Shown here: one piece after another, positions 1,498 to 63,914 of the stretch
Layout: each line of letters opens with the position of its first letter
Numbering within the stretch: position 1 is the stretch's first letter
Source of the DNA: a virus
Direction: 5' to 3' (one strand)
DNA: 64,000 nucleotides
Virus record (IMG/VR): IMGVR_UViG_3300036770_008728
Coordinates: 1-64,000 of that record
Notes under the pieces: model-generated
Database searches by the model: none
The model's input: only the letters and a program-made list of their open reading frames with translations
What the model was told of the DNA's origin: nothing
Made by a program: the position numbers and the translations under genes

Positions 1498-1706
1498 TGA
1501 ATTTTCTTTTGTGCTTTAAGTCGGCCAACCAGCGCCATCACTGAACCCACGGCGGTACCCAGGGTGGAAAGTACTTCAACGAGGTCCTTCTGAGCCTGCT
1601 CATCCACGTTGTAACCGTAAATACTCCCAATCTGGGAAATCACGATTACCACAACGCCAATAATGGTTTTTGACTCATACCACTTTTTTGTCACGTAGCT
1701 GTTCAT
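1494..1706 (-). CDS. Putative holin
   Basis: A 70-residue protein with two hydrophobic segments (about residues 13-31 and 44-61) and a basic C-terminus ending RLKAQKKIQ, the size and topology of small class II-like holins that permeabilise the inner membrane for lysis. It heads the lysis cassette and carries the complete leader AACCATTAGGATTAAC just upstream of its ATG, so it is probably its own expression unit. The family is assigned by topology and context only. Confidence 0.65.
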   Translation of the reverse strand: MNSYVTKKWYESKTIIGVVVIVISQIGSIYGYNVDEQAQKDLVEVLSTLGTAVGSVMALVGRLKAQKKIQ

Positions 1707-1738
1707 TTGTTAATCCTAATGGTTATTGCTGTTGGGCA

Positions 1739-1948
1739 TTAGCCCTCTGTTTTTTCAATCTTACTTGCTGAGACCACTGCTCCTACAGCGTCGACTATCG
1801 CTTGAATCCCACAGGACCCATCTAAGGGGATCCCCACCAGTTGTGCAATCTGAGTCAGCGCCACATTAAGTTGCTGATTCGCTTGCTGCATCTGTTCCAG
1901 CTGCAGTTGTTTGTCAAAGGCCCAAGCCTTTACTTCGTTAATATCCAT
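1739..1948 (-). CDS. Small phage protein, function unknown
   Basis: 69 residues, Gln-rich helical N-terminal half (residues 1-35) and a small hydrophobic C-terminal half. The ATG overlaps the stop codon of the preceding gene (TAATG at 1946-1950), so it is translationally coupled. It lies between the tail-tip genes and the holin, a place often taken by tail-fibre accessory proteins, but no family is recognised. Confidence 0.6.
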   Translation of the reverse strand: MDINEVKAWAFDKQLQLEQMQQANQQLNVALTQIAQLVGIPLDGSCGIQAIVDAVGAVVSASKIEKTEG

Positions 1949-2304
1949 TATTCAGTCGCCAGAACATTTGTCAGTAACCACTGCTCACAAGCACTTACCA
2001 TTTCTGACTCAGCTAATGGCTGTTGAAGCTGCATATTAAAATATTCTGGAAAATTGTTAGGCCGGAAAGTCAGCGGGGGTTTACGTTCCTGTAAGGCCGC
2101 TAAGGACGGATAAATCAAGGCAGTGAAGCCAATTTGAGAATGAGACTGCTGACTGGTATTCACGTACTGTGGGCCAGTTTCAGTAATTTCCAGATTTAAT
2201 TGAGTATGTTGATTGGAACTGTGACTCACATGATTAATAACCACAACTGCTCCGGTATAAACAATACCGTGTGCATCTTCATAGCCATCGGGTACATTGA
2301 TCAT
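1948..2304 (-). CDS. Tail-region hypothetical protein
   Basis: 118 residues. The ATG at 2304 is chosen over one 13 codons upstream because AGGAG lies 8 bases before it. The protein is polar with no membrane segment. It follows the two tail-tip genes in the operon and is coupled to the next small gene. A role with the fibres is a guess from position. Confidence 0.6.
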   Translation of the reverse strand: MINVPDGYEDAHGIVYTGAVVVINHVSHSSNQHTQLNLEITETGPQYVNTSQQSHSQIGFTALIYPSLAALQERKPPLTFRPNNFPEYFNMQLQQPLAESEMVSACEQWLLTNVLATE

Positions 2305-2366
2305 TGAACTCTCCTTTTGATTGATAGAAAAAATAGTGTGCAATAATGGCTCTAATTGAAAAGCCC

Positions 2367-3644
2367 CTAAACACCATAAAAGTTGAAACTGTAGTTTGCT
2401 GAAATGCTGACAATCACTGCGTTATTAAATTTGCTCCGTATTTGAATCGTAACTACACCAGAATATCGACGTTCCAAATTTTGGTGTGTTTGACTTAGTG
2501 TTACGCTGGTATTGTCTTCAGACCATGTGCCAGGTGAGCCCGTATTTGAGGTCATTTGTATTCCAGTAGATAACATGCCACCTGAAGACTGAGACAGGGT
2601 GTAGCGGTATTCTACGGCGCCCTTCATACCCGGCCCATATCCAACATCAAATCCCATATTTCCAGAGAGACCCACACCCCAAGTGATGCTAAGAGTTCTC
2701 ATCACCCCACTGGTGCTACCAGAGACAGATTGCGCCTTTGGGTAAACACTGAAGATCAGTGAGGTTCCAGAGCCGGCAAATTGGGATAATGAGAGGTTTC
2801 CAGAAGAGGGCACACTGGCATTTTTTGTAATGTTGGGGACATAACTCCCCCCCTTTAGATAGGCCCGTAAATTCCGATATGGGGGGTAGGCCAAACTGGT
2901 CCCTCCGAAGAAGTTTATGACATCGGTAAGGCTGATCGGCAGACTTACTTTTGGGAAATTGATTACTTGGCCGGTACCTGGGTCTGTCGCCGTCGTAACT
3001 GTAAAACTGGCACTGACCCCTCCGACGGTCATAGTTCCCGTTCTGGACGCTCCCCAACTAGAGGGCGAAGTTACAAACAGCTGAATTTTATCCCCGGCTT
3101 GCACCGTTGCACTGGTGACACTTGATCCACCATTTACAGTAAAATCGGCGCCGGCGCTGCAGGAGGCTGAGACTGGCGTGTTAATACCCGTTACCGTAAA
3201 GGGTGCTCCAGCAATCCGGTCACTTGTAGATACGCCAGAGTAACTGGGTCCTACACTAAAGGCATCTGGAGTGGCATCAATTCCGTCCGTAATTTTTATG
3301 TAGAGATTGGGGTACATCGAATGCCCCGGCCCGTACATATCTACAACCAGGGTGTCAATATAACCGGAGCCCACAACTGCGGACGCTATGGTTTGTCGAG
3401 TAACGGTTCCGTTTGGATTGGTTATCGGGGAGTTTGATGTGTCTGTCCAATACCCAGAGTCAAAAGCATAGACAAGAAAGAGGTATCCCGTAGCATCGCC
3501 AGTTTCCTGAAATATAAAATTTACGATGTCTCCCTTGGTAATCACTATGGGGTTGGCGTAACTGTTTGCCGGCAAAAAACTGGCCGTGCGGGTACCGAGC
3601 TCTTGGTTATAGTTTGCTCGGCAGTAAACGTTTATTGTGGCCAC
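2367..3644 (-). CDS. Tail tip/fibre-associated protein with Ig-like segments
   Basis: 425 residues, rich in Ser, Thr, Gly and beta-prone sequence, with no catalytic motif. Residues about 140-220 look like an Ig-like/BACON-type beta-sandwich, and LSQFAGSG near residue 290 resembles the LSQF motif of several phage fibre proteins. The GTG start has GGAGG just upstream and overlaps the last 13 bases of the J gene, indicating coupled production with the tip. Likely a virion surface protein contacting the host or decorating the tip. Confidence 0.6.
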   Translation of the reverse strand: MATINVYCRANYNQELGTRTASFLPANSYANPIVITKGDIVNFIFQETGDATGYLFLVYAFDSGYWTDTSNSPITNPNGTVTRQTIASAVVGSGYIDTLVVDMYGPGHSMYPNLYIKITDGIDATPDAFSVGPSYSGVSTSDRIAGAPFTVTGINTPVSASCSAGADFTVNGGSSVTSATVQAGDKIQLFVTSPSSWGASRTGTMTVGGVSASFTVTTATDPGTGQVINFPKVSLPISLTDVINFFGGTSLAYPPYRNLRAYLKGGSYVPNITKNASVPSSGNLSLSQFAGSGTSLIFSVYPKAQSVSGSTSGVMRTLSITWGVGLSGNMGFDVGYGPGMKGAVEYRYTLSQSSGGMLSTGIQMTSNTGSPGTWSEDNTSVTLSQTHQNLERRYSGVVTIQIRSKFNNAVIVSISANYSFNFYGV

Positions 3645-6600
3645 CGCGGTCCTCCACTAATGGCCCGAACCTCACGTTTCAGAGCTTTCAATGCTTCAAC
3701 AATTAAGCCCGTAACTGCCAAGTTTGAGACATGCAATTTCCCCTCGGACTCGTAAACTCCTTCAGGTAGAACCTTCTTAACATCTTGTGCGATAAGCCCG
3801 GCACATCTACGGTTATTTTGGTCAATCCGGTTAAAGGTTAAACCTGCCAGGTGCTCAATCAACTCCAAAGCGTTCTCTATGGGCGCCAGTCCTGTTTTAA
3901 CCCGAGCGTCCGACGTCGAAATACAGTCCGTGGCTGTTAATGTTCCCGCACAAGACGCATTACCCGCCTGTGTGACTCGGAAAGCCCAGTTCAGTTGATT
4001 ATTCAAAAATCCAATTTCTGATCCCGTGGCCATTGCTGCCCCGTGGCTCCCGAGGTACACGTAAACACTGGAACCCGCGGCGCTGTTAGCCGTCCATCCA
4101 TAATAGTTAGGTGTCCAGCTAGTTCCACCAGAGCTCAGAGATGTTACTGTTAATGTCGCATTGGTAGCAGATGTTACCCGACCCTTCGAGTCAATTTGTA
4201 AGACGGGAACCTGTGTACTGGAACCATAGGTGTTGGCTACAACCCCAGTCGTGGACAATGAAGCCGTGCCGGATAATGCTGCTTGACCATCAAAAGTACC
4301 GGGGTTCCAAACAACATCCCCACTCATACTCACAGACCGGGCAGTCGCCAGTTTGACCGCCGAGGTGGCCGTGGTGGCACTGGTGGCACTGGTAGCCGTC
4401 GTGGCGCTGGTGGCATTCCCATTTAAACTACCGTTAAACACGTTGGCGGTCAGATTACCTGAAGCATCCCTGGCGGCCACAGTACTTGCCGTGGCGGTCG
4501 TCACAGCATTTACCGACCAGGTGACAGAGTTTGATCCCGTGAAGGCGGACCCGGTAAGGTAGCTCCCTGGAGTGAGAGTTCCCCCTCCTCCGGTAGCAAT
4601 CGTAATAGAGCTTTCCCCTGTAAACGCAACACCGTTTATAGTGATGTTGTTTTTTAGCCGGGTCGCCGTTGCGGCGTTAAAAGAATTCACCGCGAGTTTT
4701 AACTGAGCAGCAGTGGCTATTTTCGCCACCGTGGACGTGCCGGCTACAACCTCGGGATCCGTCATCAGCGGTTTATTAGTAATGTTTGCCCAATCACTGG
4801 TGGTCCCTGCGGCGCCTGAGGGTACTTGGTACGCCCGGAAGTTGTGCGTTCCTTGGTAAGCTTCAGGCCAGTTATAAACCATGATCTGAACGCTGTATGT
4901 TAGAGGACCGGCCGGGGGGGTTGCTTCTGACGGAGACCAGTCAATCATGGGTAACTGCAGAGCGTACAAACCAGGCTCATCCAATGTAGCCGAACCAGAA
5001 AAGGTCTGGGTGGCAACTGTGGTGGTTCCCCGCTTAATTGTGACTTCAATAAGTGGAGTACTCGGAGCTGAGGGATAGGCTTTCATAATGCCCCGGCCAC
5101 CGTAGTTGTAATTGAATGAGATGGATGTCGCGTTGGAGTTTAGCGATGGCAAAGGAAATGTATTGGAAGAGAAAGCGCCGGAGTATGTCCGTAAACCCCC
5201 AAACTCGGGGTTCCCCGCACCGAGTTCAGAACGAAGCCAGCTGACTACACTGGCGTCGAGGTGCTTTTGTTTAACGGAGCTACCGCGGAGATATTCACCG
5301 TCCACGAACCCTACACCATTACCTACGGCGAACAGCTGAGAGTTGCTGGACATGGCCTCGATGTAGTAATTCCCCCCGAGTCTTAAATAGTTAGTGGCGT
5401 TACCGACCATTAAACTCCCAGTAATGGTGGCTTCCGTCGCAAACAGGCTATTTATGTTAATCTTGTCGGCGGTGATGGATCCTGTCACCAACAAGCTACC
5501 ATCAATAACTTCTGCAACAGTCGACCATGCACTACCTGTCCACGTTCGGGTTTCAGACCACTTTCCGGCGGGGTAACTTTGAGTTACCCGGTCAGCGACT
5601 ATTTTCCCATTGTGAGGAGCACCAGTCAGAGCAGAGTTCGCCGCAGCATCGGACCAGACTGCAGAGGAGGTTAGAACATAAACGTGAACAGTTCCCCGTC
5701 GGCCCTCGGCTCCCTTATCACCTGTTAGTTGCACCGGCGCTGACCAGCTACCAATCAGGGTGCCATCGGCATTTTTCTTCGCAGAACTCATGTAAAGGGG
5801 ATCGGTACCCGTCGGCGGGGCATCAAACCACCCAGCAGGGGCTTGACCTGTTGGGGTTGTTGGAGGTGTTGCTGACCGAATAAAGATGTAATCCACGTAT
5901 GGACCATCTTTACCTTTTTCCCCCACGATTCGAATGGCTGCAGACCACGTTACACCATTATCTGTACTCTGGCGCATGAACACGTCGAAGGCTTGGAACC
6001 CACTATGCCACGCGGCACCATCGACTGAATATTGAACCAATGTAACTGGAGCATTATCACCAGTTATTTTAACTGGCGTAGACCAAGTAACTACAATCGC
6101 CCCTGCCGCGTTTTTTGTGGCCTGTACCATCCACAGCGCGGTAGTACCCGCAGGAGTACTTGTTGTCCATCCGGCGGGTGTGGCTCCCGTTGGCGTTGCT
6201 GGCTGAGTTGCTGACCGCTGGTACCTGAACTCGATATAGTTACCATCCTCACCAGACAGTTTAATTACGTTGGACCAGGTACCTTGCAGCTGTCCCAAGG
6301 CGTTTTTTGTACCTCTGATCATCCAAAGGGCGCCTGCGCCACCCGGAGGATAATCTAACCAACCAGCGGGACTATCAACGTTTGTTGGTTGTGCCGGTTG
6401 TGTCGCGGCTCTTTGGAATCGGAAATCAATGTATTTCCCACCTTGGCCGTCTTCCCCCACAATTCGAATGGCTGTCGACCAGGTTACACCGCCGTCCGTG
6501 CTTTGGCGCATAAACATGTCGGTTTCACGGAATGCAGAGGACCAGTCATTAATACCATCTGGTGAGTACTGCACAGTTAATGTCTGAGCTGCACTGGTGA

Positions 6601-9600
6601 CCTCATTCCACTCAGTACTTGTACCATCCAAATAGAAAATTCGGCTGGTCATCCACAAAGTATCAGATCCCGGAGGAACCGCCAGGCTCCACCCAGCAGG
6701 TACCGGTGCTAAATAAGTCCCACTGACTTTAGTGGGTCTTAGAGGTTTACTGGTCGCTCGTTGATAAACGAAAACCGTCTTTTCCAGATTAAGTCCAAGC
6801 TCATCGAAGCTGGCTTTTTGTGTTTTTATGATTTGTCCAGGAGCGGGCTCCATTTGACCAGTCGTTGAGTTAAATACATCAGCCGGCCAAAACGACGAGT
6901 AATAACCGGCGTATTTAAATCTAACCCACACCTGACAATCCATTTCTGGCACACCGACGTAGAGGCCATACATGGACGCCCCAGTGTGCGCCAGTTTTCG
7001 TGGATTCATTACGACTTTTAATGGGTAGTTACCCTGACCATCCGGGGGCTGCTGAGTGTCTGGAACCTTATCGGAGTCCGCTACCCACCATTCAACTTCT
7101 GCAGGAACTGTGCCTCCCGAGCTGCTGAGCTCCCCAGAAATGGTTCGTGACGAACTGATTAGGGTGATACCTTGAACCGTGGGAAATTCAGGTTTCGTTA
7201 CATTGATCTGGCGCTTCTGCCAGGGGAATTCGTTGTAATTTGGAGGAGTAACTGTGCTGTAGACAAAAATATACCGTGGGTGTGTTGCCGACGTGGAGTA
7301 ATCCACAAAGTTTACGCTGGCACTCCATGCACCATAAACGTTACCACTGCCATTGTTCGTAACCGTTCTGGTTCGGTAAAACTTGTGTGTGGACAAATAA
7401 CCATAAACCCAGGTAGAACCATTGGCAGAGAACTGAATTTCTTGACCCAAAGTGAGATTCTGCAGGCCTCCCCACTCACCAAGAGCCACGCCACCTGCCG
7501 TGTATTGCCTCGACTTTCTCCACAGGTAACCACCTGAACCCGTCGGAGTTGAGTTCCACTTGAACGGCAATTCGTTCAGTAGCGCCTCGCTATCGCGTGA
7601 AATAAGGCGAACGTGTAAGGACCACCCACCATTGGCTGTATTCAACGCCGTTAGAATCGTGCTGCCTTCCAAGAGAATTTCTGGGGAGGTTTGAGTACCT
7701 TGCAATATGGTGGTCGGATAACTGGGACCGGTTGGTGGAACGACCGTACCAATCAGTTCGAAATTAAACCCAGATATTTCGTTAGAACCAAACAAATCGA
7801 GGGTCTGGTCCGTGCCGGGGATCAAGTAAGTCGCGGCCAGTTTTAGTTTCATACTCAGATAGTTAAATTCCTGAGTCACACTTATGGCCAGATTGGATTC
7901 CACGATATCTGCCGGCCGCAGTCGGTAAGACTGCCAATCCAGGATGTTGGAATTGAGTTTGATGTCCTGATAGCGCAACTGGACATAGAACTGATAAACA
8001 ATATCTCTCTTGATCGGGAATTCGTAATAACTGGTTCGAGTTACGGCCGCTTCATAAAATGGGTTACCGTTCTCGCTTACGTAGACTGCATAGGCAAGTC
8101 CCAAGAATGAATATTGTTCGGTGTCCCACTGCAGACGAACCATTGGGCTGAGTTCACCGTTCACAATGAGAGAGGTCTCACCGATATAGCTGAGGTTATT
8201 CGGCCCTTTAGGCATACGAGGTTGTTCAAAGTTGTACCGAGGCTTTTCTCCGAGTACACCATCTAAGGCCTGTTGCCACTTATTCCGGTTTACTTCAACA
8301 CAGGTAATAGACCTGAGATGTGAGGCTCCATCTACCCGGCTAATAGCCACAATACGGAATGGTTTGGAGACACCCGGGGCCGCACCGGTTTTCTGAATGG
8401 AGAACGCGGGGTATTCCGCCAATGAGGCTGTCACCGCCGCGGTCAGTGTTAGAGTGCTATAACTGCCCACTGCCGGAATATTAAAGCTATGGGTCACGGT
8501 AGATCCATTAGCTGTCTGCAGCAAAAAGCTGTAAGTGCCTATGGCTTCAAAATACAACGGATCACGCAAAATAACGGTGGTGCCGGTGATACTGCGGGCA
8601 CGGCCTGACATCCCCCAGTCCATATCCGGATCTACGATATTAATGATGTCGTAGATTTCCCAGCTGATGGCCATCAGTGGAATGGTGAAGGTGCATGTCA
8701 GAACTTCGGTCTGAGCGCTGATGAGTCGGTAAAACGCCTTGTACGTGGCTTCATAAATATTGGTGCAACCGAGAGCCTTGAACTCATAGATGTTTACGCC
8801 CTGAGATTTCTGCGCCTCTTCATCGCGGAACGGGCCAACGAACTGTTCTTGCCAATCCAGTTCCGGCTCAATATATGTGGCTTGGACCTCGTTAGGTCGG
8901 TCTTTCAATGCGCTGGATGAGTAGTTAAAAACAATGCCGCTATCTTGCTGCACACACATTTCTGGTGTGACATCCATGATAGCTGCGACGTTACGGTCAG
9001 AAACAATTTTTAGAAAGCCCGAGGCATATTCAATGGCCTGTGCGTGAGCTGAACCAAGGATAAAGTTAATCAACTCCAGACCCAGCATTGGATCCCGAAT
9101 CACACCGTTGAAGGTGAACAGTGGAATAGTTTTACCATCCACTGTTCTCATGGTGTCGGCGTACTTCGCTTCCTCATACAGGCTGAAATCGTCCACTGTA
9201 ACCCGCGGGTTATACCGAGCCATACCGAAGCGTGGGTTGGTGATGAGCTCTCTGACTATCCAGAAGGGGTTGTTCGTCCACACGCGAGATGTTTTAAAGG
9301 TCCCATCCCACGGCGTTGACTCGTTGTATGTCCGAGCCACTGGATCATAGTTACTGGGTACCTTACACAGCAAACCTCGCCACACAGCTGTAAGGCCAGG
9401 GATCCGGTTAAAGTTCTCACCAATTTTGGACACGAACGTCATCATTGCCGTGCCAGGGTGATACTCTTTAGTGACCTGACCATCCTTGTTCAGAGACTCT
9501 GACAACTCATAGTTCAGCCAGAACAGTTCGCGGATGGTCGTTTCAGGGTCGTTCACATCCAACATGGTGACCCGAAGGTCCCTATCTACGCTGGTGTCTG

Positions 9601-10189
9601 GTAAGAAAAATGCAAACGACCGGACAAAACCACCACTAAGGGTTTTACCAGAAATAGTGTGTGTCTCAGTGTTCCAGCTGGCGTCCGCGGATTTTTTGTG
9701 ATCAATACGAACTCTAACTGAAAGCTCTTTCGCGCCGTCCTTTGTGACATTCGCCAGACGAGCAACCATCAGGCGGATTTCAATTTTGTTGTATTTGTTC
9801 CGGTATAACGAGGGAACCGTACGAGTGATTGATACATCCTGTTCAAGACTGGCCGATACTGCGACAGGTGTGGCCGTACCGCCAAGCATGTAGGGGATAG
9901 GTGTCTGGCCATAGACCGGATCTTCCACCTCGGTAACGGCGGTACCCGGTTCGAAGTTAATGACAACCTGACTTTCTTTGAACGACTTGTCGCCCGACGC
10001 CGTGAGAATGGGTGTACCATCGAGATAAACATTTTTCAGCTTCTCTTCGATTGTCGCCCCTTTAATGCCCTCAATCGGGCCTTCAGAAATACCGAGCACA
10101 ACCTCAACGGCATCCCCACTGAATAGTGAATCCCGAGAGTTTTTTGGGCCACTACCGCCGCCCGCCCCTGAAGTAAAAGGCTTTGTCAT
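3632..10189 (-). CDS. J: Central tail tip / host-specificity protein (gpJ-like) with C-terminal S74 chaperone
   Basis: 2185 residues, about twice lambda gpJ (1132). The N-terminal part (to about 900) follows the gpJ tail-hub plan. Residues about 1140-1500 are an array of related modules: four begin with an R(A/S)AT/RATS-x-P motif followed by PAGW and LWM/LYM, interleaved with two copies of an FMRQSTD-x-GVTWS-x-AIRIVGE unit. The last about 100 residues, starting SDARVKTGL and including AGLIAQDV and LPEGVY, match the S74-type intramolecular chaperone that trimerises fibres and is usually auto-cleaved. The start carries a leader (AGGGATTAAC). It is expected to sit at the tail tip and set receptor specificity. 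Confidence 0.92.
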   Translation of the reverse strand: MTKPFTSGAGGGSGPKNSRDSLFSGDAVEVVLGISEGPIEGIKGATIEEKLKNVYLDGTPILTASGDKSFKESQVVINFEPGTAVTEVEDPVYGQTPIPYMLGGTATPVAVSASLEQDVSITRTVPSLYRNKYNKIEIRLMVARLANVTKDGAKELSVRVRIDHKKSADASWNTETHTISGKTLSGGFVRSFAFFLPDTSVDRDLRVTMLDVNDPETTIRELFWLNYELSESLNKDGQVTKEYHPGTAMMTFVSKIGENFNRIPGLTAVWRGLLCKVPSNYDPVARTYNESTPWDGTFKTSRVWTNNPFWIVRELITNPRFGMARYNPRVTVDDFSLYEEAKYADTMRTVDGKTIPLFTFNGVIRDPMLGLELINFILGSAHAQAIEYASGFLKIVSDRNVAAIMDVTPEMCVQQDSGIVFNYSSSALKDRPNEVQATYIEPELDWQEQFVGPFRDEEAQKSQGVNIYEFKALGCTNIYEATYKAFYRLISAQTEVLTCTFTIPLMAISWEIYDIINIVDPDMDWGMSGRARSITGTTVILRDPLYFEAIGTYSFLLQTANGSTVTHSFNIPAVGSYSTLTLTAAVTASLAEYPAFSIQKTGAAPGVSKPFRIVAISRVDGASHLRSITCVEVNRNKWQQALDGVLGEKPRYNFEQPRMPKGPNNLSYIGETSLIVNGELSPMVRLQWDTEQYSFLGLAYAVYVSENGNPFYEAAVTRTSYYEFPIKRDIVYQFYVQLRYQDIKLNSNILDWQSYRLRPADIVESNLAISVTQEFNYLSMKLKLAATYLIPGTDQTLDLFGSNEISGFNFELIGTVVPPTGPSYPTTILQGTQTSPEILLEGSTILTALNTANGGWSLHVRLISRDSEALLNELPFKWNSTPTGSGGYLWRKSRQYTAGGVALGEWGGLQNLTLGQEIQFSANGSTWVYGYLSTHKFYRTRTVTNNGSGNVYGAWSASVNFVDYSTSATHPRYIFVYSTVTPPNYNEFPWQKRQINVTKPEFPTVQGITLISSSRTISGELSSSGGTVPAEVEWWVADSDKVPDTQQPPDGQGNYPLKVVMNPRKLAHTGASMYGLYVGVPEMDCQVWVRFKYAGYYSSFWPADVFNSTTGQMEPAPGQIIKTQKASFDELGLNLEKTVFVYQRATSKPLRPTKVSGTYLAPVPAGWSLAVPPGSDTLWMTSRIFYLDGTSTEWNEVTSAAQTLTVQYSPDGINDWSSAFRETDMFMRQSTDGGVTWSTAIRIVGEDGQGGKYIDFRFQRAATQPAQPTNVDSPAGWLDYPPGGAGALWMIRGTKNALGQLQGTWSNVIKLSGEDGNYIEFRYQRSATQPATPTGATPAGWTTSTPAGTTALWMVQATKNAAGAIVVTWSTPVKITGDNAPVTLVQYSVDGAAWHSGFQAFDVFMRQSTDNGVTWSAAIRIVGEKGKDGPYVDYIFIRSATPPTTPTGQAPAGWFDAPPTGTDPLYMSSAKKNADGTLIGSWSAPVQLTGDKGAEGRRGTVHVYVLTSSAVWSDAAANSALTGAPHNGKIVADRVTQSYPAGKWSETRTWTGSAWSTVAEVIDGSLLVTGSITADKININSLFATEATITGSLMVGNATNYLRLGGNYYIEAMSSNSQLFAVGNGVGFVDGEYLRGSSVKQKHLDASVVSWLRSELGAGNPEFGGLRTYSGAFSSNTFPLPSLNSNATSISFNYNYGGRGIMKAYPSAPSTPLIEVTIKRGTTTVATQTFSGSATLDEPGLYALQLPMIDWSPSEATPPAGPLTYSVQIMVYNWPEAYQGTHNFRAYQVPSGAAGTTSDWANITNKPLMTDPEVVAGTSTVAKIATAAQLKLAVNSFNAATATRLKNNITINGVAFTGESSITIATGGGGTLTPGSYLTGSAFTGSNSVTWSVNAVTTATASTVAARDASGNLTANVFNGSLNGNATSATTATSATSATTATSAVKLATARSVSMSGDVVWNPGTFDGQAALSGTASLSTTGVVANTYGSSTQVPVLQIDSKGRVTSATNATLTVTSLSSGGTSWTPNYYGWTANSAAGSSVYVYLGSHGAAMATGSEIGFLNNQLNWAFRVTQAGNASCAGTLTATDCISTSDARVKTGLAPIENALELIEHLAGLTFNRIDQNNRRCAGLIAQDVKKVLPEGVYESEGKLHVSNLAVTGLIVEALKALKREVRAISGGPRWPQ

Positions 10190-10217
10190 TGTTTGTTAAT
10201 CCCTAATTTGTGCTCTA

Positions 10218-11301: not shown

Positions 11302-11780
11302 GAGGGGTTCCTTTTTGATAGGCGCTGTCTGACCGCAAATGGTAACTGTGCCAGGGTGTCCATAGTCAGATTTTCAAAAGTGAGCTCATAAGTCGGGTGC
11401 CTGAGAACCCGCGTCACCCGTTCACGCCATTTCAGGTTATATGGGTCAAGACGAGATTTTTGGCCGGTCAGATGATGCAGAATCATTCCCTTGCCCACAT
11501 AAATAGCGATGTGGTTGCTGGTCTCAGTTCTCCCCATCGCCATCAGTAACGCATCACCAATAACAACATCATTGGGGTTTGTGGTGGCCTGCTGAAAACC
11601 TTCGTCGGGGAACAGTCGATCAAAGAAATTAAATCCAGGCAGCATGTACCATTGCGAGGGGCGGGCATAATCTTTCAGCTCCAGCCCCATCACTTCTTTG
11701 TAATACTGGCGGGCGAGGGTATAGCAGTCCTGCCAACCCTCTTCAAAATCAATGCCCAATAAATGTTGAAGGTGCTGCAT
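11298..11780 (-). CDS. NlpC/P60 cysteine peptidase tail protein (C-terminal half of gpK)
   Basis: 160 residues. Candidate catalytic residues are C19 (QDCYTLAR), H90 (SNHIAIYVG) and H102/H103, the NlpC/P60 order, indicating a murein peptidase carried in the tail tip to help DNA entry. Its gene precedes the JAB gene in transcription order, the reverse of the lambda gpK domain order. The start overlaps the gpL stop (TGATG). Confidence 0.85.
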   Translation of the reverse strand: MQHLQHLLGIDFEEGWQDCYTLARQYYKEVMGLELKDYARPSQWYMLPGFNFFDRLFPDEGFQQATTNPNDVVIGDALLMAMGRTETSNHIAIYVGKGMILHHLTGQKSRLDPYNLKWRERVTRVLRHPTYELTFENLTMDTLAQLPFAVRQRLSKRNPS

Positions 11781-12271: not shown

Positions 12272-12300
12272 GTCTGTTAATCCCGAGTTTTTTCTGCATG

Positions 12301-12339
12301 ATAGCTGAAAAAACAAAACCCAGCCACAAGGACTGGGTT
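12301..12339 (-). terminator. Rho-independent terminator between M and L
   Basis: Read on the minus strand, AACCCAG and CTGGGTT (12317-12323 with 12333-12339) form a 7-bp stem with a 9-base loop, followed by TTGTTTTTT. It would separate the head/tail-tube transcript from the tail-tip genes, which restart with their own leader. Confidence 0.7.
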
Positions 12340-12340
12340 A

Positions 12341-12363
12341 ACCATTAGGATTAACAAACATTG
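12341..12363 (+). promoter_or_regulatory. Orphan leader copy facing right inside the leftward tail module
   Basis: A perfect ACCATTAGGATTAAC directly after the hairpin, oriented against the surrounding genes. Instead of ATG it is followed by a TTG codon at the normal spacing (12361). This TTG opens a 99-codon frame to 12660, most of it antisense to gpM and with no recognisable protein signature. It may be a remnant of a lost plus-strand gene or a working antisense unit. Confidence 0.6.
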
Positions 12364-12399
12364 ACACGAGGCCACTGCTTGCTAATCCAAATATTATTG

Positions 12400-12434
12400 G
12401 ACAACTGCGGACAAGTCAAGACAACCGCAGACAA
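12400..12434. repeat. Four GACAA sites at exact 10-bp spacing
   Basis: GACAA occurs at 12400, 12410, 12420 and 12430, one helical turn apart, in a 107-bp intergenic gap. A 14-base unit ACAACYGCRGACAA is repeated at 12401 and 12421. The same half-site occurs as inverted pairs in the control region at 39911-39974, suggesting operator sites for a phage regulator. Confidence 0.6.
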
Positions 12435-18839: not shown

Positions 18840-18857
18840 GTTTGTTAATCCTTATTT

Positions 18858-19528: not shown

Positions 19529-19577
19529 GTCTGTTAATCCTATAGTTGTCGTCATAATAGTAAACCACAGGACCAGA

Positions 19578-20423: not shown

Positions 20424-20477
20424 GTTTGTTAATCCTTCAATTGTGATAAAATCAGCTATAAACGGAACAATATAATC

Positions 20478-25677: not shown

Positions 25678-25708
25678 GCTTGTTAATCCTATTCTAATTT
25701 TAGTGGAG

Positions 25709-27292: not shown

Positions 27293-27345
27293 GTTTGTTA
27301 ATCCTCAAATTGTCTATTTATGCTAGAGCATTTTATTTCGAACTT

Positions 27346-31488: not shown

Positions 31489-31621
31489 GCTTGTTAATCC
31501 TCTGATTGTATTGCCTGATTTTGTGCGGCAATTTCAGTATATCACCGGATAATTTGAATGTGGAACGGCAATATTCCGGTATGATTCACTGGAAAGTAAC
31601 ACATCGACAGGATTAACAAGC
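31489..31621. promoter_or_regulatory. Divergent control region, late operon / 31622 gene
   Basis: Leaders at both ends (AGGATTAAC on each strand) bracket 133 bp, the only place where the long leftward structural transcript can start. TATACT on the minus strand (GTGATATACTG) and TATGAT on the plus strand are possible -10 boxes. An imperfect inverted repeat ACCGGA...TCCGGT lies between them. No convincing -35 boxes were found, so an activator or modified polymerase may be needed. Confidence 0.5.
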
Positions 31622-33028: not shown

Positions 33029-33263
33029 GGCATACCTCTAAATTTTTAAAATTTTTTCCGGGAGCTATCTTACCCCACATCGCGCTTCGGACACAATAGC
33101 ACAGAAAAAACCTGTACACCTTGCCAGATATTGCCATAATGCAAGGGCAGACCAGCTGCAAACGAGGCCCACCGGCTTCGACGCTCTAGTACTGCCCTTA
33201 GCCAGGACACGGTTGGAAACTTCCAACCGAACCGAACCAAGCCAAACAATGGGATTAATAAAC
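33029..33263. promoter_or_regulatory. Divergent intergenic region with a plus-strand promoter candidate
   Basis: 235 bp between the triple-RHH gene and the 33264 gene. TGTACA, a 16-base spacer and CATAAT near 33112-33139 form a plausible sigma70-like promoter for the right-hand gene. The leader variant GGGATTAATAAAC precedes the 33264 ATG. No terminator or coding frame of quality is present. Confidence 0.4.
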
Positions 33264-34723: not shown

Positions 34724-35079
34724 AACTAATCAGCATCTGACCCGCTACAGCCCTACTCCCACAAGGCTTTCAGGCGTTCAGACCCTAACCCTTTTTCACA
34801 GTCACACCCTTATTTTGACCCCCGCAAGCAGCTGGGTGTGGCTGTGGTTTTTATTCCGACGCTGACCTGACCACTGCGCCAGGTTGTGTCCTTTGTGGCC
34901 TGGGGCGCGTTCAGACCCTTTTGCCTACCCTGAAACTGGTGTTTTTCCGACTTATAATTTTGACCCGCTCAAACCCTTGAATTTGCGCGAGTTTTGGAAT
35001 TTGGACGGTTTTTCACCTATGAATTAATCGAAAAATTTGGGTAGTAACTTGCCCACCAATCAAAATTAAGGATTAACAA

Positions 35080-35379: not shown

Positions 35380-35464
35380 TGGTGCTTGACGAATGTGGTG
35401 TGGGTAGTATCTTTCTGACCGTCACCTGACATTCAGGGACAGAACAATTAGGGATTAACAAAAC

Positions 35465-39974: not shown

Positions 39975-40102
39975 TGTTATTTGTACTATTTAGCCATTAG
40001 GATTTAAAACAAAATTAAGAGCGCCAAAGGGCGAACTTTTAGTGTCAGAGGGATTTGCACGGATCGCCACTGACCATTAGGATTAACAAACATCTGTTTG
40101 TC

Positions 40103-40171: not shown

Positions 40172-40193
40172 CGAACCATTAGGATTAACAATT

Positions 40194-40554: not shown

Positions 40555-40577
40555 GACTAACCATTAGGATTAACATC

Positions 40578-41353: not shown

Positions 41354-41373
41354 CAATCAGGGGATTAACAAAC

Positions 41374-41940: not shown

Positions 41941-41967
41941 GTCACTAACCATTAGGATTAACAAATT

Positions 41968-43561: not shown

Positions 43562-43588
43562 GTACCCTAACCATTAGGATTAACGAAT

Positions 43589-44427: not shown

Positions 44428-44442
44428 ACCATTAGGATTAAC
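44428..44442 (+). promoter_or_regulatory. Representative start-site leader ACCATTAGGATTAAC
   Basis: Typical copy of the leader found before about 30 genes. AGGA can act as Shine-Dalgarno, 10 bases before the ATG here. Further copies precede starts at 1706, 10189, 12271, 18839, 19528, 20423, 25677, 27292 and 31488 (minus strand) and 31622, 33264, 35080, 35465, 40194, 40578, 41374, 41968, 43589, 46980, 47475, 49949, 51099, 51569, 52648, 53798, 56497, 59643, 60115, 61137 and 63915 (plus strand). Confidence 0.85.
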
Positions 44443-46956: not shown

Positions 46957-46979
46957 ACAACCATTAGGATTAACAAACT

Positions 46980-47450: not shown

Positions 47451-47474
47451 TCAAACAATTCGGGATTAACAAAC

Positions 47475-49920: not shown

Positions 49921-49948
49921 CCCGCAACAACCAGAAGGATTAACAAAC

Positions 49949-51067: not shown

Positions 51068-51098
51068 TTCAATTCAACAATCAGAAGGATTAACAGAC

Positions 51099-51353
51099 AT
51101 GCCTCAGTTATTTCAAATCAGCGTCGGCGGGATGGTGAAGCACATTGACCAAACCGACGAGCAAGCGTTCAACATCCTGAATCAGCAGCTGCGTGGCCCA
51201 GAGGCCCGTGCTCAGGCTCAGGAGCACGACTACAAACTGCCGGAAGAATACGAAGTGACCAAGCTGCTACGCCTCGCTCGGTCCGGGATTTCGGCCTCGA
51301 TGAACGGTGTGGCCATTGACCTTCAGAAACAACCTTCTGAGGTGGCCGCATGA
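51099..51353 (+). CDS. Unknown protein
   Basis: 84 residues, start set by the leader AAGGATTAACAGAC. Helical, Gln/Ala-rich. Coupled to the following small gene. Confidence 0.55.
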   Translation: MPQLFQISVGGMVKHIDQTDEQAFNILNQQLRGPEARAQAQEHDYKLPEEYEVTKLLRLARSGISASMNGVAIDLQKQPSEVAA

Positions 51354-51546: not shown

Positions 51547-51568
51547 ACAACAATTAGGATTAACGAAC

Positions 51569-52624: not shown

Positions 52625-52647
52625 ATCAACCATTAGGATTAACGATC

Positions 52648-53774: not shown

Positions 53775-53797
53775 TCTCTAACCATTAGGATTAACAA

Positions 53798-55583: not shown

Positions 55584-55586
55584 CCA

Positions 55587-56405: not shown

Positions 56406-56406
56406 A

Positions 56407-56438: not shown

Positions 56439-56496
56439 CGTTAAAATACGCCAAGGACGACAAAGGTCGGCCGTTAAATGATTAGGATTAACAAAC

Positions 56497-57303
56497 ATGC
56501 AACTCAATGCGTCTGCCGCTTTTACGGTAATCACACGTCATCGGAAAATTCCACCAGCCACGGATACCCGGCCACAAGCAGAACCACAGCCGCACTTCGG
56601 CGTGTCTGAAGTCAACGGCGTGAAATACATCTTCCAGGATACATGCCCAGAGGGTATGCCTTTGGTCGCTTGGGAAGACCGTTTCTCCAAGCGTTCCGGT
56701 CGCAGCACAGAAGAAGCAGGTATCGGCGGGTGCTGTGCTCACAACCTCAATACGATTAACCTGTACCGCAAGGTTTCAAGCAATCAATGGGCTGAGTTCC
56801 TAAAGATTGCCAGCGACCCGCTGGTTCAGCTGTTTATGCCAGTACCGGCCGAGGCAAAGCCATTTCAATCCAATGTGCTGATCTTGGACCAGAACCTGTG
56901 TAAGAGCTGGTACTTTCTGCTCAAAAATTTAGAGCGTTTGTGCTCACCGATGTACACAAAAATCTGGCCATGGGGTGACCAGCAAGCACAGGACCGCTAC
57001 CGTGAACTGTCACTCACCAATATCCACCCGGTTGTTTACACGTTCAAGGCCGCGAAGCATGACTTCAATGAAATTCGCCAGTTTATTTCAGCGGCACGAA
57101 ACAGCGACGTTCGCCGGCCAGTGTTACTGGTGGCTGATACACCTCTGGTGGCCAAGCTGGCAGAAATCAAAGGGACGGAGGTTATCCAATCCGGTCTGGT
57201 TGATAACTGCCTGACCAGTAACATGATCACCTTACCGTTGGAGCACATTGGTACCCGAGTTCTGGGTTACTACGCCCAGCATGACACCATAGAGCTCCGC
57301 TGA
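56497..57303 (+). CDS. Unknown replication-region protein
   Basis: 268 residues with leader ATTAGGATTAACAAAC. Several Cys (GGCCAH) but no clear motif. Overlaps the next start by one base (TGATG). Located upstream of the SF2 helicase. Confidence 0.55.
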   Translation: MQLNASAAFTVITRHRKIPPATDTRPQAEPQPHFGVSEVNGVKYIFQDTCPEGMPLVAWEDRFSKRSGRSTEEAGIGGCCAHNLNTINLYRKVSSNQWAEFLKIASDPLVQLFMPVPAEAKPFQSNVLILDQNLCKSWYFLLKNLERLCSPMYTKIWPWGDQQAQDRYRELSLTNIHPVVYTFKAAKHDFNEIRQFISAARNSDVRRPVLLVADTPLVAKLAEIKGTEVIQSGLVDNCLTSNMITLPLEHIGTRVLGYYAQHDTIELR

Positions 57304-59609: not shown

Positions 59610-59642
59610 CGCTAAAAACAATCAAAATTAGGATTAACAACC

Positions 59643-59939
59643 ATGGCTAAATCTGCCTTGAATTTCAAAATTTTTAACCTGTTCACCAGTGCGATTGGGA
59701 TGAATGAAGCTCAAACCAACCCACACAACGACCGGTTGAACGAGCTGTCCATTATGTCCAATTCAATGCTGACCCATTACCTGGTGGCTCCCGCTGCCGA
59801 GCGGCAACAAGTACTGACTCAGCTTCAAGAAACGTTGAATTTGGCGCTGGACCAGCTTCAAACCGGCCTGGCTCTCATCGAAGAAGAGCAAGCCCTCCTG
59901 CAGGCGGAGATTACCCCCTTGTCGAATACAGAAAGCTGA
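59643..59939 (+). CDS. Unknown helical protein
   Basis: 98 residues, C-terminal half a Leu/Gln-rich helix (QVLTQLQETLNLALDQLQTG). Leader ATTAGGATTAACAACC and a terminator behind it make a one-gene unit. Function unknown. Confidence 0.6.
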   Translation: MAKSALNFKIFNLFTSAIGMNEAQTNPHNDRLNELSIMSNSMLTHYLVAPAAERQQVLTQLQETLNLALDQLQTGLALIEEEQALLQAEITPLSNTES

Positions 59940-59978
59940 TTACACTTGTCCTCAGCTAATACCTCGTAACATTGGTCA

Positions 59979-60002: not shown

Positions 60003-60114
60003 GAGGTTTAGCTTGAGACTGAGCGTATCGGCCTTGGACCTTCCAAGGTTCAATTCCGATGCTCTTAGCATCTCCACAATCTGGGATTAACAATCATAAT
60101 CGAGGTAAAAAATC

Positions 60115-61068
60115 ATGACTATGAACATTGACGCCATGATCGCAAACGCTAATCAATCTGCTAATCAACAAACTCAACAAGCGGTCACTATCGACCAGAC
60201 CGTTGTCCACACTCAAACTGTAAATCAAGCTCAGAATACCCAGGTAGACGTCGTTGACGACGAAGAAGCTGAACTGATGCGTCAGTTAGAAGCCAAACGT
60301 GCGGCGAAAGCGGCCGCGGCAGCGCAAGCAGCCAGCCCTCAAGCCGGCCAAGCTGTGAGTCAGGTTCAACCACAGTATCTGCCTGCAGGTGCCCAGCAAA
60401 CTGTCGCTGTTCAGCAAAATGCTCAGGTCCCTGTTGCAGGTGCCACCGGTGCGGCGGCTCTGCCAGCGCACTTAGCGGCGTCGTTAATGCAGCCGATGAG
60501 CATGGATATGGAAACCTTCATGTCCATGGGGATGTCGGTGGACCTGTGGCTGAAGCCAAGTTATGCCGGCCTGACTGTGGGTGACAATGCCACACCAGTA
60601 CCTCACATGGATGTCGTTATTGATATGACTGAAAAAGTGGGTTTCCAGCTGGCCATGGCTATTCGTTATGGCAGTGAGCCAAATGTGAAGTACGACTACA
60701 CCCATGACTGCGTGACAAACAAAGATGGCCGCCCTTGGGCGGATGCTTTGGCTTTAGCATATCAACTGGATCCTAAAGTCAGCCCATACCGCTGCGTTCA
60801 GCTGCCGATGGTCGTGGCAGACGAAACTAAAAACTTCCAGAACCAGGTTGTTGCCCTGCCGGGTCAAACCGTGGGTTACACCACCGCTGTTACCGGTTGG
60901 AGTGCATGGCAGAACTTCTACATGCAAGTTCAACGGGCAGGACTACTGGGCCATAAGGTGAAAGTTCGCCTGACCAACGAAGCGAAAATGAAAGACACCA
61001 ACAAATGGGGTCTGATTAAGTTTGAGCTTCTGGGTGTTGCTGACGCGACACAGCAAAAAACAGCGTAA
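60115..61068 (+). CDS. Abundant-type unknown protein, possible ssDNA-binding protein
   Basis: 317 residues. Residues 1-115 are low-complexity (Gln/Thr/Ala-rich, with a helical EEAELMRQLEAKRAAKAAAAA); 120-317 form a beta-rich domain with FYMQVQRAGLLGHKVKVRLTNEAK and WGLIKFELLG, a pattern like the OB-fold of phage ssDNA-binding proteins. Both a leader (GGGATTAACAATC) and a GAGG Shine-Dalgarno precede the ATG. Placed between helicase and exonuclease genes. The function is inference. Confidence 0.5.
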   Translation: MTMNIDAMIANANQSANQQTQQAVTIDQTVVHTQTVNQAQNTQVDVVDDEEAELMRQLEAKRAAKAAAAAQAASPQAGQAVSQVQPQYLPAGAQQTVAVQQNAQVPVAGATGAAALPAHLAASLMQPMSMDMETFMSMGMSVDLWLKPSYAGLTVGDNATPVPHMDVVIDMTEKVGFQLAMAIRYGSEPNVKYDYTHDCVTNKDGRPWADALALAYQLDPKVSPYRCVQLPMVVADETKNFQNQVVALPGQTVGYTTAVTGWSAWQNFYMQVQRAGLLGHKVKVRLTNEAKMKDTNKWGLIKFELLGVADATQQKTA

Positions 61069-61076
61069 TCGCTACC

Positions 61077-61100: not shown

Positions 61101-61136
61101 ACAAACAATTCGGATTAACAAACAAGCAGGTGACCT

Positions 61137-61934
61137 ATGCTCCGCATAATCGACGGTAACAACCGTTTCCGTGCTCACTTCGAAAAACAAGGCCCACAGG
61201 CCCTCAGTAATCTCTACAACCACAGCGTGACGTTCAACTCAGGTGACAAAGTGATCTGGGTGTGGGATGCCCCGGGTGGTTCCGGTGCCAGAAAGTCTAT
61301 TTATCCGGCCTACAAAGGCGCAACGGATAATATCCCGACAGACCATTTCTTTGAGACCATGAAGTTCTTCAAAGAAATCCTGCGGCATTCAAACTGCCTG
61401 CAGATTGAAGTACCTGAGTTTGAAGCGGATGACGTCATTGCCGCTCTTGCCTTGGGGAGTTCGCAAGAAATACTTATCGACAGTAGTGATGCTGATTTCC
61501 TCGTTCTGGTGAATGACCGGATCCAGAGCACACGAGACCCCATCAAAGGTGTTGATGCTCGGCATGTCCGGCTTTACAAAACGCTGGTGGGTGATACCTC
61601 GGATAATATTCCGGGCCTTAAAGGTTTTGGGGAGAAGGGCTTTATTACTCTTCCCGACAGCACGAAAGACCTTTTGGTCAGCCACTTCGCAGGAACTCAA
61701 AACCTGACTGGTGCAGACACCATGCAACTCTGTGGCTTCAAAAAGGCCCAGGCAGCGAACTGGGATTTGATGCAGGCCGACCTTCAAACCTTCTGGCGGA
61801 TCGTGGGGTTCTTCGACTTACCGCCTGAACTTCTTCAAAAACATATCACTGCCGGTGTTCACAACCCGCTTGAAGCTCAGAAGCTGTTGGCTTCTCAGCT
61901 GATGACGATGGCACCGACAATGGGAGCTGTCTAA
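61137..61934 (+). CDS. 5'-3' exonuclease (FLAP/PIN family)
   Basis: 265 residues, like the 5' nuclease domain of Pol I or T5 exonuclease; removes RNA primers and flaps. Metal-binding acids are visible: D6 (IDGNN), D44 (WVWDAP), E96/D98/D99 (FEADDV), D115/D118/D120 (IDSSDAD), D153/D156 (GDTSDNIPG), with R52 and K60 in the helical arch. Stop overlaps the thyX start (TAATG). The leader is 15 bases farther than usual because a second AGGTG is used. Confidence 0.9.
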   Translation: MLRIIDGNNRFRAHFEKQGPQALSNLYNHSVTFNSGDKVIWVWDAPGGSGARKSIYPAYKGATDNIPTDHFFETMKFFKEILRHSNCLQIEVPEFEADDVIAALALGSSQEILIDSSDADFLVLVNDRIQSTRDPIKGVDARHVRLYKTLVGDTSDNIPGLKGFGEKGFITLPDSTKDLLVSHFAGTQNLTGADTMQLCGFKKAQAANWDLMQADLQTFWRIVGFFDLPPELLQKHITAGVHNPLEAQKLLASQLMTMAPTMGAV

Positions 61935-62941: not shown

Positions 62942-62950
62942 GGACCTCCT

Positions 62951-63865
62951 ATGTTTTTTGAAAATCTGAAGATTTACCGTGTGACTGAAAAGCTCCCGTT
63001 TGTTAAAGACGAAGACGCGCTTCAAGCCCAGTTGGAAGAGCATCAGTTCACTCCCTGCATGGCACATGACATGTTGAAGATGGGCTTTGTATCTCCGTTG
63101 GTTCCTGGCGGTAAGCAGCTGTTCCGAAACGTCGGCGGTAACTACTACTTTGCCCTGAAGCGTCAGTGGAAGGTGTTGAAGTCCACCATGATCAACGAGC
63201 AGCTGCAGCCGCAGATCACCCAGAAAGAACAGGAACGGGGCCGGCCGCTGGGACGTAAAGAAAAGTCGGGTCTGAAAGATGAAACCATCCAAAGTCTGTT
63301 GCCACGGGCGTTGACCGAATCATCTACTATCGTTGGGATGTATGTCCCGGCGAAAGACCTGCTGATTTTCAATACCAGCAGTCATGGCCGTGCTGAAGAC
63401 TTTATGGCTTTGTTACGTAAAGCTCTGGGCAGTTTACCCGCGGTACCATGGTTTGATGCGAACAAACTGTCCTTTGCAATGAATTCCTGGTTGGGCCAAC
63501 AACACCTGCCACAGGATTTTGTGCTGGGTCACACCGTAGAGCTGAAAGCGCCCGATGAAGACGGTGCAGTGGCACAGTTCAAATCTCACCTGTTGACCGG
63601 CGCCGACGTTCAAAGCCATTTAGAAGACAAAATGGTGACGAAGCTGGAGCTCTATAAGCCTGAGCATTTAAGTTTCACGATTGTTGAAGATGGCCGGATC
63701 TGCAAACTCCGCTGGCGAGAGCTCCTTATTAACCAGAACGATGAGCTGGGCTGGGAAGATTTGGAGGCCCGACTTGAAGCAGACAGTCTGCTGATGTTGG
63801 ATACCATTACAACTTTGTTGGACAAACTGACGGGCTCAATGCAAGCCGTTGACGACGCAGCGTGA
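62951..63865 (+). CDS. rdgC: RdgC recombination-associated protein
   Basis: 304 residues, the normal length of RdgC (303 in E. coli), a ring-shaped dsDNA-binding protein that restrains RecA. Residues 1-20 (MFFENLKIYRVTEKLPF) and the C-terminal DITTLLDKLTG-type end agree with the family. It follows thyX with 9 bases between and ends the operon before a terminator. Confidence 0.88.
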   Translation: MFFENLKIYRVTEKLPFVKDEDALQAQLEEHQFTPCMAHDMLKMGFVSPLVPGGKQLFRNVGGNYYFALKRQWKVLKSTMINEQLQPQITQKEQERGRPLGRKEKSGLKDETIQSLLPRALTESSTIVGMYVPAKDLLIFNTSSHGRAEDFMALLRKALGSLPAVPWFDANKLSFAMNSWLGQQHLPQDFVLGHTVELKAPDEDGAVAQFKSHLLTGADVQSHLEDKMVTKLELYKPEHLSFTIVEDGRICKLRWRELLINQNDELGWEDLEARLEADSLLMLDTITTLLDKLTGSMQAVDDAA

Positions 63866-63871
63866 CAATCA

Positions 63872-63893
63872 GGGTGGCTTCGGCCACCCCTTT
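63872..63893 (+). terminator. Terminator after rdgC
   Basis: GGGTGGC-TTCG-GCCACCC followed by CTTTAAAATTT: a 7-bp stem with a UUCG loop. The leader of the last gene follows. Confidence 0.75.
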
Positions 63894-63914
63894 AAAATTT
63901 GGGATTAGCAAACA

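Follow-up and report, generated by a model that had tools for sequence, protein, structure and literature searches.

A recurrent start-site leader as candidate target box of a phage-encoded small RNA

The repeated start-site leader of this phage is very probably the box targeted by a small RNA (sRNA) that the phage encodes and that acts in trans; with the help of a phage ProQ protein, this sRNA would repress about 30 mRNAs. Hence, protein synthesis from most gene clusters is probably shut down at once by one short RNA.

The leader and its sites

The window, i.e. the whole stretch of DNA analysed (64,000 nt), contains 46 matches to AGGATTAAC with at most one mismatch compared to 10.6 expected, a count reached by no shuffle. 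The full 15-mer was found 21 times with up to three mismatches (1.1 expected), eleven copies being exact, and exact AGGATTAAC occurs 28 times in the whole 84,406-b record (21 on the plus and 7 on the minus strand). The most over-represented octamer was GGATTAAC, with 39 copies (2.5 expected), 32 of them upstream of ATG ORFs. According to our own gene calls a leader lies at most 45 nt upstream in 34 of 107 genes; evidently, the repeat described in the first-pass annotation is real. Its consensus in this phage is ACCATTAGGATTAAC, and its invariant core comprises GGATTAAC and AAAC as far as the start codon; in place of the first A of AGGA there is frequently G, C or T. In most cases, the start codon follows the 9-mer by 2-6 nt and AGGA by ~9 nt, corroborating the proposed function of AGGA as ribosome site. 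Unit starts were defined by an intergenic gap of more than 12 nt or a change of strand, and the leader was sought within 45 nt upstream. Thereby, 33 of the 34 leader genes, compared to 25 of 72 leaderless genes, begin a unit (Fisher p=1.6e-10), so that the earlier claim of a leader at the head of each unit, in both genome halves, holds.

On the plus strand, full-form leaders are located at 40175..40189 (gene 40194-40520), 40560..40574 (gene 40578-41087), 41948..41962 (gene 41968-42600), 43570..43584 (gene 43589-44392), 44428..44442 (gene 44448-44927), 46960..46974 (gene 46980-47450; 19 nt complementary to the sRNA), 52629..52643 (gene 52648-53445) and 53781..53795 (Dda-like helicase gene 53798-55087). 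A further exact full copy at 40073..40087 (+) has no start codon at the expected position and is possibly a decoy or relic. Leaders at 31609..31617, 35069..35077, 49936..49944, 51086..51094, 51556..51564, 56484..56492 and 59630..59638 precede the genes 31622-32146, 35080-35379, 49949-51067 (DNA ligase), 51099-51353, 51569-52591, 56497-57303 (18 nt complementary to the sRNA) and 59643-59939, respectively. The form GGGATTAAC stands at 35451..35459 (ORF 35465-35668), 41361..41369 (gene 41374-41592) and 47462..47470 (DNA methylase gene 47475-48833), and the variants GGGATTAATA and GGGATTAGCA at 33251..33260 (gene 33264-34007) and 63901..63910 (DNA polymerase gene starting at 63914).

The minus strand carries a full-form leader at 1709..1723 (gene 1494-1706; 18 nt complementary to the sRNA) and GGGATTAAC at 10195..10203 in front of the central tail protein gene (3632-10189) and at 12276..12284 in front of the tail gene 11780-12271. 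Further minus-strand leaders precede the tape-measure gene 12840-18839 (18844..18852), the tape-measure chaperone gene 19163-19528 (19533..19541) and the gene upstream of it, 19623-20423 (20428..20436), the major capsid gene 24460-25677 (25682..25690), the gene 26144-27292 (27297..27305) and the first gene of the terminase unit, 30943-31488 (31493..31501).

Four copies are displaced and stand upstream of a separate Shine-Dalgarno sequence and ATG: GGGATTAAC at 60083..60091 (+; gene 60115-61068), CGGATTAAC at 61111..61119 (+; exonuclease gene 61137-61934), and the copies at 70767 and 75311 (record coordinates). Such 5' UTR-like arrangements would suit a phage promoter or mRNA 5' end, a role also envisaged in the first-pass annotation, to which we nevertheless give hardly any credence: in most copies the ATG lies at the tight and fixed distance of 2-6 nt behind the motif, so the mRNAs would be leaderless, the copies share no sequence further upstream and often have a hairpin there, and neither the few proteins scanned nor the annotation of the relative KB12-38 gave a sign of a phage RNA polymerase or sigma factor. 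A displaced leader with separate Shine-Dalgarno sequence is found at the same gene in this phage and in KB12-38 (75334/71612), and its conservation in both indicates a task beyond the Shine-Dalgarno function. The leader is more than a ribosome site. A boxA/nut-like antitermination element, considered for TTAACA, was rejected by reasoning: neither order nor core agrees, and the sequence in KB12-38 is TTGAC.

A predicted small RNA gene complementary to the leader

The exact full copy at 12341-12355 (+), inside the minus-strand tail operon, is no leader and corresponds to the antisense segment of a predicted sRNA gene (12308..12388, minus strand; ~81 nt, 5' end estimated) in the 176-nt gap between two tail genes. 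This sRNA gene is syntenic in 13 records and is composed of 5' hairpin, antisense segment and terminator. All of its elements lie on the minus strand. A sigma70-type promoter (TTGACT - 17 nt - TAATAT, 12391..12419) is followed by the antisense (seed) segment AATGTTTGTTAATCCTAATGGTTAACC (12336..12362), complementary to AACCATTAGGATTAACAAACAT, and by the Rho-independent terminator, a hairpin AACCCAGTCCTTGTGGCTGGGTT and then TTGTTTTTTC (12317..12339). The predicted single-stranded toehold UAAUGGUU between the hairpins (12340..12347) pairs with ACCATT of the full-form leaders. One promoter site and one terminator were found, both on this strand; the promoter by itself is not significant in every genome (weak in G001 and G010). 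The predicted fold has a minimum free energy of -34.1 kcal/mol and a z of -5.85 (-3.4 to -6.8 in the other genomes), and comparison with Rfam gave no family above the gathering score. Judged by these signals, 12308-12388 is a discrete sRNA gene with its own promoter and Rho-independent terminator.

The seed is, by its letters, complementary to a box common to several mRNAs at the translation start. Uninterrupted runs of 10 or more Watson-Crick pairs with the sRNA were found at 31 of 107 gene starts, the longest run being 19; by comparison, JWF, Lumi, Seuss and EAb13, in which no leaders of their own were found either, showed no such run at any of 424 gene starts. Duplex energies of -14 kcal/mol or lower were calculated for 43 starts compared to a mean of 11.3 with shuffled seeds. 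The predicted pairing extends from ACC upstream of the Shine-Dalgarno sequence, across AGGA and spacer, as far as AU of the start codon, a length of up to 22 nt if the first start-codon bases are counted. In G008 and G009 the sRNA would pair only with spacer and start codon and not with the Shine-Dalgarno GG. With the folded sRNA the median gain on binding was -10.2 kcal/mol for full-form, -4.9 for core-only and -2.8 for leaderless starts. Part of the antisense is masked by the 5' hairpin in this phage, and partly so in KB12-38 and G001, which explains the small gain of the core-only leaders in our simple cofold model. Among nine sRNAs tested, the own sRNA was the best binder in six of nine genomes.

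The antisense might be a cis-only attenuator of the neighbouring tail gene 11780-12271, whose leader lies immediately downstream on the same strand, at a distance of ~70 nt. We regard this as highly improbable, because the neighbour's leader offers only 9 complementary nt compared to 15-19 nt for distant full-form leaders and matches poorly in G007, G008 and G009, and because promoter and terminator delimit an RNA of its own.

Covariation, synteny and a ProQ/FinO-domain protein

Relatives were obtained by a TerL alignment search; a TerL single-protein scan gave no matches, and exact-pattern scans of IMG/VR with the full 15-mer and AGGATTAACAAACATG yielded single scattered matches and no multi-copy genome. 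All leader-bearing phages examined have the sRNA gene at this locus, in total 12 genomes (this phage, KB12-38 and ten IMG/VR genomes) and one close contig. Hairpin, antisense segment and terminator occupy the same tail-gene gap in all 12 genomes, most of them with a clear promoter. In KB12-38 (MF098558), from a lysogenic Pseudoalteromonas sp. with leaders at, e.g., the capsid and excisionase genes, this gap spans 13,766-13,932, and its minus strand would encode an RNA of ~80 nt. In leaderless relatives the gap is absent and the two tail genes abut or nearly so. Furthermore, altered letters in the leader are matched by altered letters in the antisense of the same phage, as in GGATTAAC/GTTAATCC, GGATTGAC/GTCAATCC, GGAAATTGAC/GTCAATTTCC, GGAAATCGAC/GTCGATTTCC and GGAATTGAC/GTCAATTCC. 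G002, which lies close to G004 in the tree, has mixed leaders (ATTGAC/ATCGAC); the corresponding sRNA base is a G, able to pair with either form, as would be expected of a change in progress. In the close relative C456 (81-86% DNA identity) antisense and terminator are identical, and the 5' arm is altered with its pairing kept. At orthologous genes of this phage and KB12-38 the leader is present in both at 14, in neither at 20 and discordant at 8 (p=1e-4).

These data also bear on the reading that the leader is only an extended standard ribosome site of independently initiated genes, its antisense being a coincidence or a decayed inverted copy. AGGA does lie at a good Shine-Dalgarno distance, the leader does mark uncoupled genes, and the similar Start-Associated Sequences (SAS) of mycobacteriophages have no known partner. 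Nevertheless, we consider this reading unlikely: TTAAC is more constant than the first Shine-Dalgarno base, the leader letters vary between related phages and the needs of Shine-Dalgarno pairing do not, displaced copies with a second Shine-Dalgarno sequence are conserved, and in every genome examined the antisense keeps its locus, covaries with the leader and is flanked by a terminator and mostly also by a promoter. The earlier suspicion that ATTAAC and ACCATT are kept for a reason other than ribosome binding was thus borne out, in that they point to a trans-acting factor and their complement is carried by the phage sRNA.

Beyond the window, the record further contains a ProQ/FinO-domain protein gene (74370-74867 in record coordinates), whose product in profile comparisons matches the solved ProQ, RocC and FinO; an AlphaFold model computed with no alignment was poor (pLDDT 49) and was not used. 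The ProQ domain is present in nine of nine full-length leader-bearing genomes compared to 0 of 14 without leaders, and its gene is among only four with a strictly leader-matching presence profile. Leader-bearing phages form one clade (99/100), so this co-occurrence may reflect a single historical event. As far as can be read from the genomes, a FinO-domain protein is encoded together with the sRNA system. This co-occurrence, together with the proposal of SAS as RNA or protein binding sites, would also suit a leader bound by a phage protein, e.g. a RegA-type translational repressor, instead of an RNA. We consider this quite improbable, because FinO-domain proteins bind terminator hairpins instead of linear boxes (PMC9674577) and an exact, covarying antisense RNA gene is present. 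Accordingly, of the RNA-binding phage protein suggested at first, a companion of the system is left: the exact complement in the phage sRNA, with letters covarying with the leader in related phages, indicates that the leader is read by RNA, and the phage ProQ is a probable chaperone of this RNA.

Proposed mechanism and comparison with known systems

In the proposed mechanism, a host-type (sigma70) promoter would drive the sRNA, which would fold into 5' hairpin, antisense segment and terminator hairpin. Contact would begin between ACCATT of the leader and the toehold, the sole antisense part that is single-stranded in the free RNA, whereupon the remaining antisense would displace the 5' hairpin, and pairing would cover the region from Shine-Dalgarno sequence to start codon of ~30 mRNAs. 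Since ribosome site and start codon would thus be hidden, the sRNA should repress translation, the sign of regulation being deduced from the position of pairing. The targets would be the first genes of ~30 units of replication and morphogenesis, and coupled genes inside the units would need no leader owing to their dependence on the first gene. The phage ProQ might bind the terminator hairpin, stabilise the sRNA and promote pairing. As the phages are temperate, a likely use would be the silencing of lytic functions in the prophage or their timing during infection. More tentatively, a constitutive sRNA and ProQ might silence most lytic units of the prophage and also superinfecting phages with the same leader, an RNA-based prophage immunity that is possible yet rather less than probable. 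In that case, the letters of leader and antisense would delimit groups of RNA immunity that drift apart between phages, a testable RNA counterpart to DNA-repressor immunity.

A single RNA would address ~30 start sites in one phage. The co-changed letters of box and antidote in several lineages amount to a natural compensatory-mutation experiment on a genome-wide scale. If the mechanism holds true, a phage ProQ/FinO-domain protein would be assigned a function, and other puzzling start-associated repeats may be sRNA targets as well.

P4 CI RNA and P1 c4 are phage antisense RNAs of lysogeny control. These, as well as P22 sar, lambda OOP and 24B_1, act on one or a few genes, whereas ~30 starts would be addressed here, and to our knowledge no phage antisense RNA acts at the starts of the majority of transcription units. 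As with P22 sar, lambda OOP and Stx phage 24B_1, which take part in lysogeny control (PMC12197685), a phage RNA would act on phage mRNA, presumably with a role in the choice between lysis and lysogeny.

The leader itself resembles the Start-Associated Sequences (SAS/ESAS) of Cluster K mycobacteriophages and Cluster EF Microbacterium phages (PMC3203893, PMC7302621) in being a short asymmetric repeat with a Shine-Dalgarno sequence directly before many start codons. There is no common sequence, as the Cluster K consensus GGGATAGGAGCCC differs from ACCATTAGGATTAAC here; in some SAS an inverted repeat lies upstream, whereas the upstream hairpins here differ in sequence from gene to gene. No anti-SAS RNA gene was found in the right half (30,001-60,835) of mycobacteriophage Anaya.

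Among bacterial systems, RocC/RocR of Legionella pneumophila combines a ProQ/FinO-domain chaperone with a trans-acting sRNA (PMC9674577, PMC9977716). In both cases a single sRNA with terminator hairpin and a FinO-domain partner is found, the seed pairs with a conserved box in several mRNAs (the RocR box there), and the outcome is repression of translation, which here would follow from the pairing. Unlike RocC/RocR, the present system is phage-encoded, with ~30 targets instead of four competence mRNAs, its pairing spans Shine-Dalgarno sequence to start codon, and its seed and boxes covary from phage to phage; its binding and repression are predicted from sequence. Finally, the plasmid systems FinP/FinO and Inc/FopA (PMC9977716) likewise represent mobile elements with an antisense RNA and a FinO-domain protein silencing their own genes; there the RNA is cis-antisense to one gene, whereas here one trans-acting RNA would serve a genome-wide set.

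The leader and the phages that carry it

Besides the window, bases 1-64000 of the 84,406 b record of the phage (here WIN), the other 20 kb of the record were also read. The leader contains a constant core, GGATTAAC, with AAAC and then the start codon behind it; ACCATT is present only in a subset of the WIN leaders, mainly in the early half. The proposal of the first-pass annotation that the leader marks unit starts was borne out, as a gap or a strand change precedes 33 of 34 leader genes. At the equivalent position the leader of Pseudoalteromonas phage KB12-38 (MF098558), the closest named phage (terminase 54% identical), reads GGATTGAC, and own versions (GGAAATTGAC, GGAAATCGAC, GGAATCGAC and GGAGATTGAC), each with many copies per genome, were found in phages with a terminase at least 50% identical; no version was found in relatives at a greater distance. 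For the orthologous genes of WIN and KB12-38 a leader was observed in both (14), in neither (20) or in one only (8), several of the latter being displaced leaders or start-annotation differences. At some genes displaced leaders occur, with the motif 20–30 nt upstream and a second Shine-Dalgarno sequence before the ATG, and this arrangement is conserved at the SbcD-like gene (75334 in WIN, 71612 in KB12-38). The leader has a task beyond that of a Shine-Dalgarno site, and a single-letter change at about 30 sites at once requires a trans-acting reader.

Hairpins without a U tract precede 12 of 21 tested leaders in WIN and 13 of 18 in KB12-38, compared to 3 of 11 and 3 of 12 other gaps, respectively. 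Between 40520 and 53800 (+) of the window, GC-rich hairpins of varied sequence, often with a GCAAAGG-type loop and without U tract, lie 10–20 nt upstream of many leaders. KB12-38 (34.1–60.1 kb) carries about nine near-identical palindromes, CGGGGTAACGTTACCCCG, each directly upstream of a leader and in most cases separated from it by ATTAAACTAAAACT; the palindrome is a possible second binding site.

Judged from their sequences, these phages are temperate. WIN and KB12-38 both encode a tyrosine integrase, which in WIN is located at the left end (window 1-1194). The right end holds a gene for a malate dehydrogenase-like protein (record 83468-84406), gammaproteobacterial in appearance, which is taken as a host gene. 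Taken together, the two ends point to an integrated prophage flanked by host DNA, and the records of these phages look like integrated prophages. In the record of the relative G004, positions 1-127 are the 3' part of a tmRNA gene, a likely attachment site. The phage contig C456 (81–86% DNA identity to the WIN record, 97% for the terminase) was binned in a Comamonadaceae MAG, a doubtful host assignment.

A predicted small RNA with the antisense of the leader

One full-form leader copy (12341-12355, + strand) lies inside the minus-strand tail operon. On the minus strand it is part of a predicted sRNA gene, in which TTGACT-17-TAATAT is followed by GGATTAGCAAGCAGTGGCCTCGTGTCAATGTTTGTTAATCCTAATGGTTAACCCAGTCCTTGTGGCTGGGTTTTGTTTTTT, which includes the exact complement of AACCATTAGGATTAACAAACAT and which is closed by a Rho-independent terminator. 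The fold of this sRNA is much more stable than that of shuffled sequences (z -5.85), and no Rfam family was matched. In KB12-38 and ten leader-bearing IMG/VR genomes (G001 to G010) an sRNA gene of this type lies at the corresponding place, in the gap that separates these two tail genes, each sRNA holding the antisense of that phage's own leader. In C456 antisense and terminator are letter-for-letter those of WIN, and the 5' hairpin arm is changed in a pairing-compatible manner. In the leaderless relatives the corresponding tail genes abut or overlap (JWF, Seuss) or are separated by a short gap (Lumi, EAb13). On this sequence evidence the reader of the leader is most likely a small RNA; the phage RNA-binding protein initially proposed as a possible binder has a counterpart in a co-occurring ProQ/FinO-domain protein, as a probable partner rather than as the reader.

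Complementarity was counted as at least 10 contiguous Watson-Crick pairs with the sRNA at a gene start, excluding the terminator. With the own sRNA this applies to 31 of 107 starts in WIN, 12 of 77 in KB12-38 and 19 to 32 starts in the remaining large leader-bearing records, and with the WIN sRNA to none of the 424 gene starts in the four relatives that lack leaders. In 6 of 9 genomes the own sRNA was the best predicted binder of the own starts; the sRNAs of the three exceptions have short seeds. G002 exhibits mixed ATTGAC and ATCGAC leaders and an sRNA G for which both bases are possible partners; in the closely related G004, all leaders are of the ATTGAC type and the sRNA carries an A, a pattern which looks like compensatory change via a G-U intermediate.

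Two full-form leaders are found at 40073-40189 (+) of the window with a spacing of 102 nt. The first (40073) shows AAACATC where the start codon is expected, followed by a hairpin, and may serve as a decoy (sponge) for the sRNA or represent a relic.

Proposed mechanism and the ProQ/FinO-domain protein

In the predicted fold of the free WIN sRNA GUUUGUUAAUCC is sequestered in a 5' hairpin, and UAAUGGUU remains open. Pairing would begin between ACCATTA of full-form leaders and the open UAAUGGUU and then invade the hairpin; the cofold gains in WIN are -10.2 kcal/mol for full-form leaders, -4.9 for core-only leaders and -2.8 for leaderless starts. In the sRNAs of G002-G010 the antisense is mostly open and flanked by two hairpins. 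Since the pairing would span Shine-Dalgarno sequence, spacer and start codon, repression of initiation would be its natural outcome. Leader genes include those for capsid, tape measure, tail, the terminase unit, DNA ligase, helicases, polymerase and exonucleases, and in KB12-38 the excisionase.

The gene for the ProQ/FinO-domain protein (record 74370-74867), whose profile matches solved ProQ, RocC and FinO, is present in all nine full-length leader-bearing genomes and in none of 14 leaderless ones; none was found in the 65-kb fragment G003. Only four WIN proteins are shared by all eight leader-bearing genomes of the comparison and absent from its four leaderless ones, ProQ being the sole predicted RNA binder among them. 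In the phage collection searched with WIN ProQ, KB12-38 was the only other match. As the leader-bearing phages form one monophyletic clade in the tree, the co-occurrence is a correlation that probably reflects one event. FinO-domain proteins bind terminator hairpins with U tails (PMC9674577), and the WIN sRNA possesses both. Two genes next to ProQ (record 70175-74336) share its strict leader-bearing-only profile; their products are a 1171-aa Herpes_ori_bp-like helicase and a 194-aa protein without known function.

Relation to known systems

In appearance the leader resembles the Start-Associated Sequences (SAS) of Cluster K mycobacteriophages, whose partner is not known (PMC3203893); no anti-SAS RNA was found in the right half of the Cluster K phage Anaya. 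A review of phage sRNAs describes antisense RNAs directed at individual genes, or sRNAs with few targets, none of which targets most of a phage's own units (PMC12197685). The proposed working of leader, sRNA and ProQ would be akin to RocC/RocR (PMC9674577, PMC9977716). With respect to this likeness, to the review and to the Rfam result, the system may be called a ProQ-associated trans sRNA regulon, of which the viral and genome-wide character would be new.
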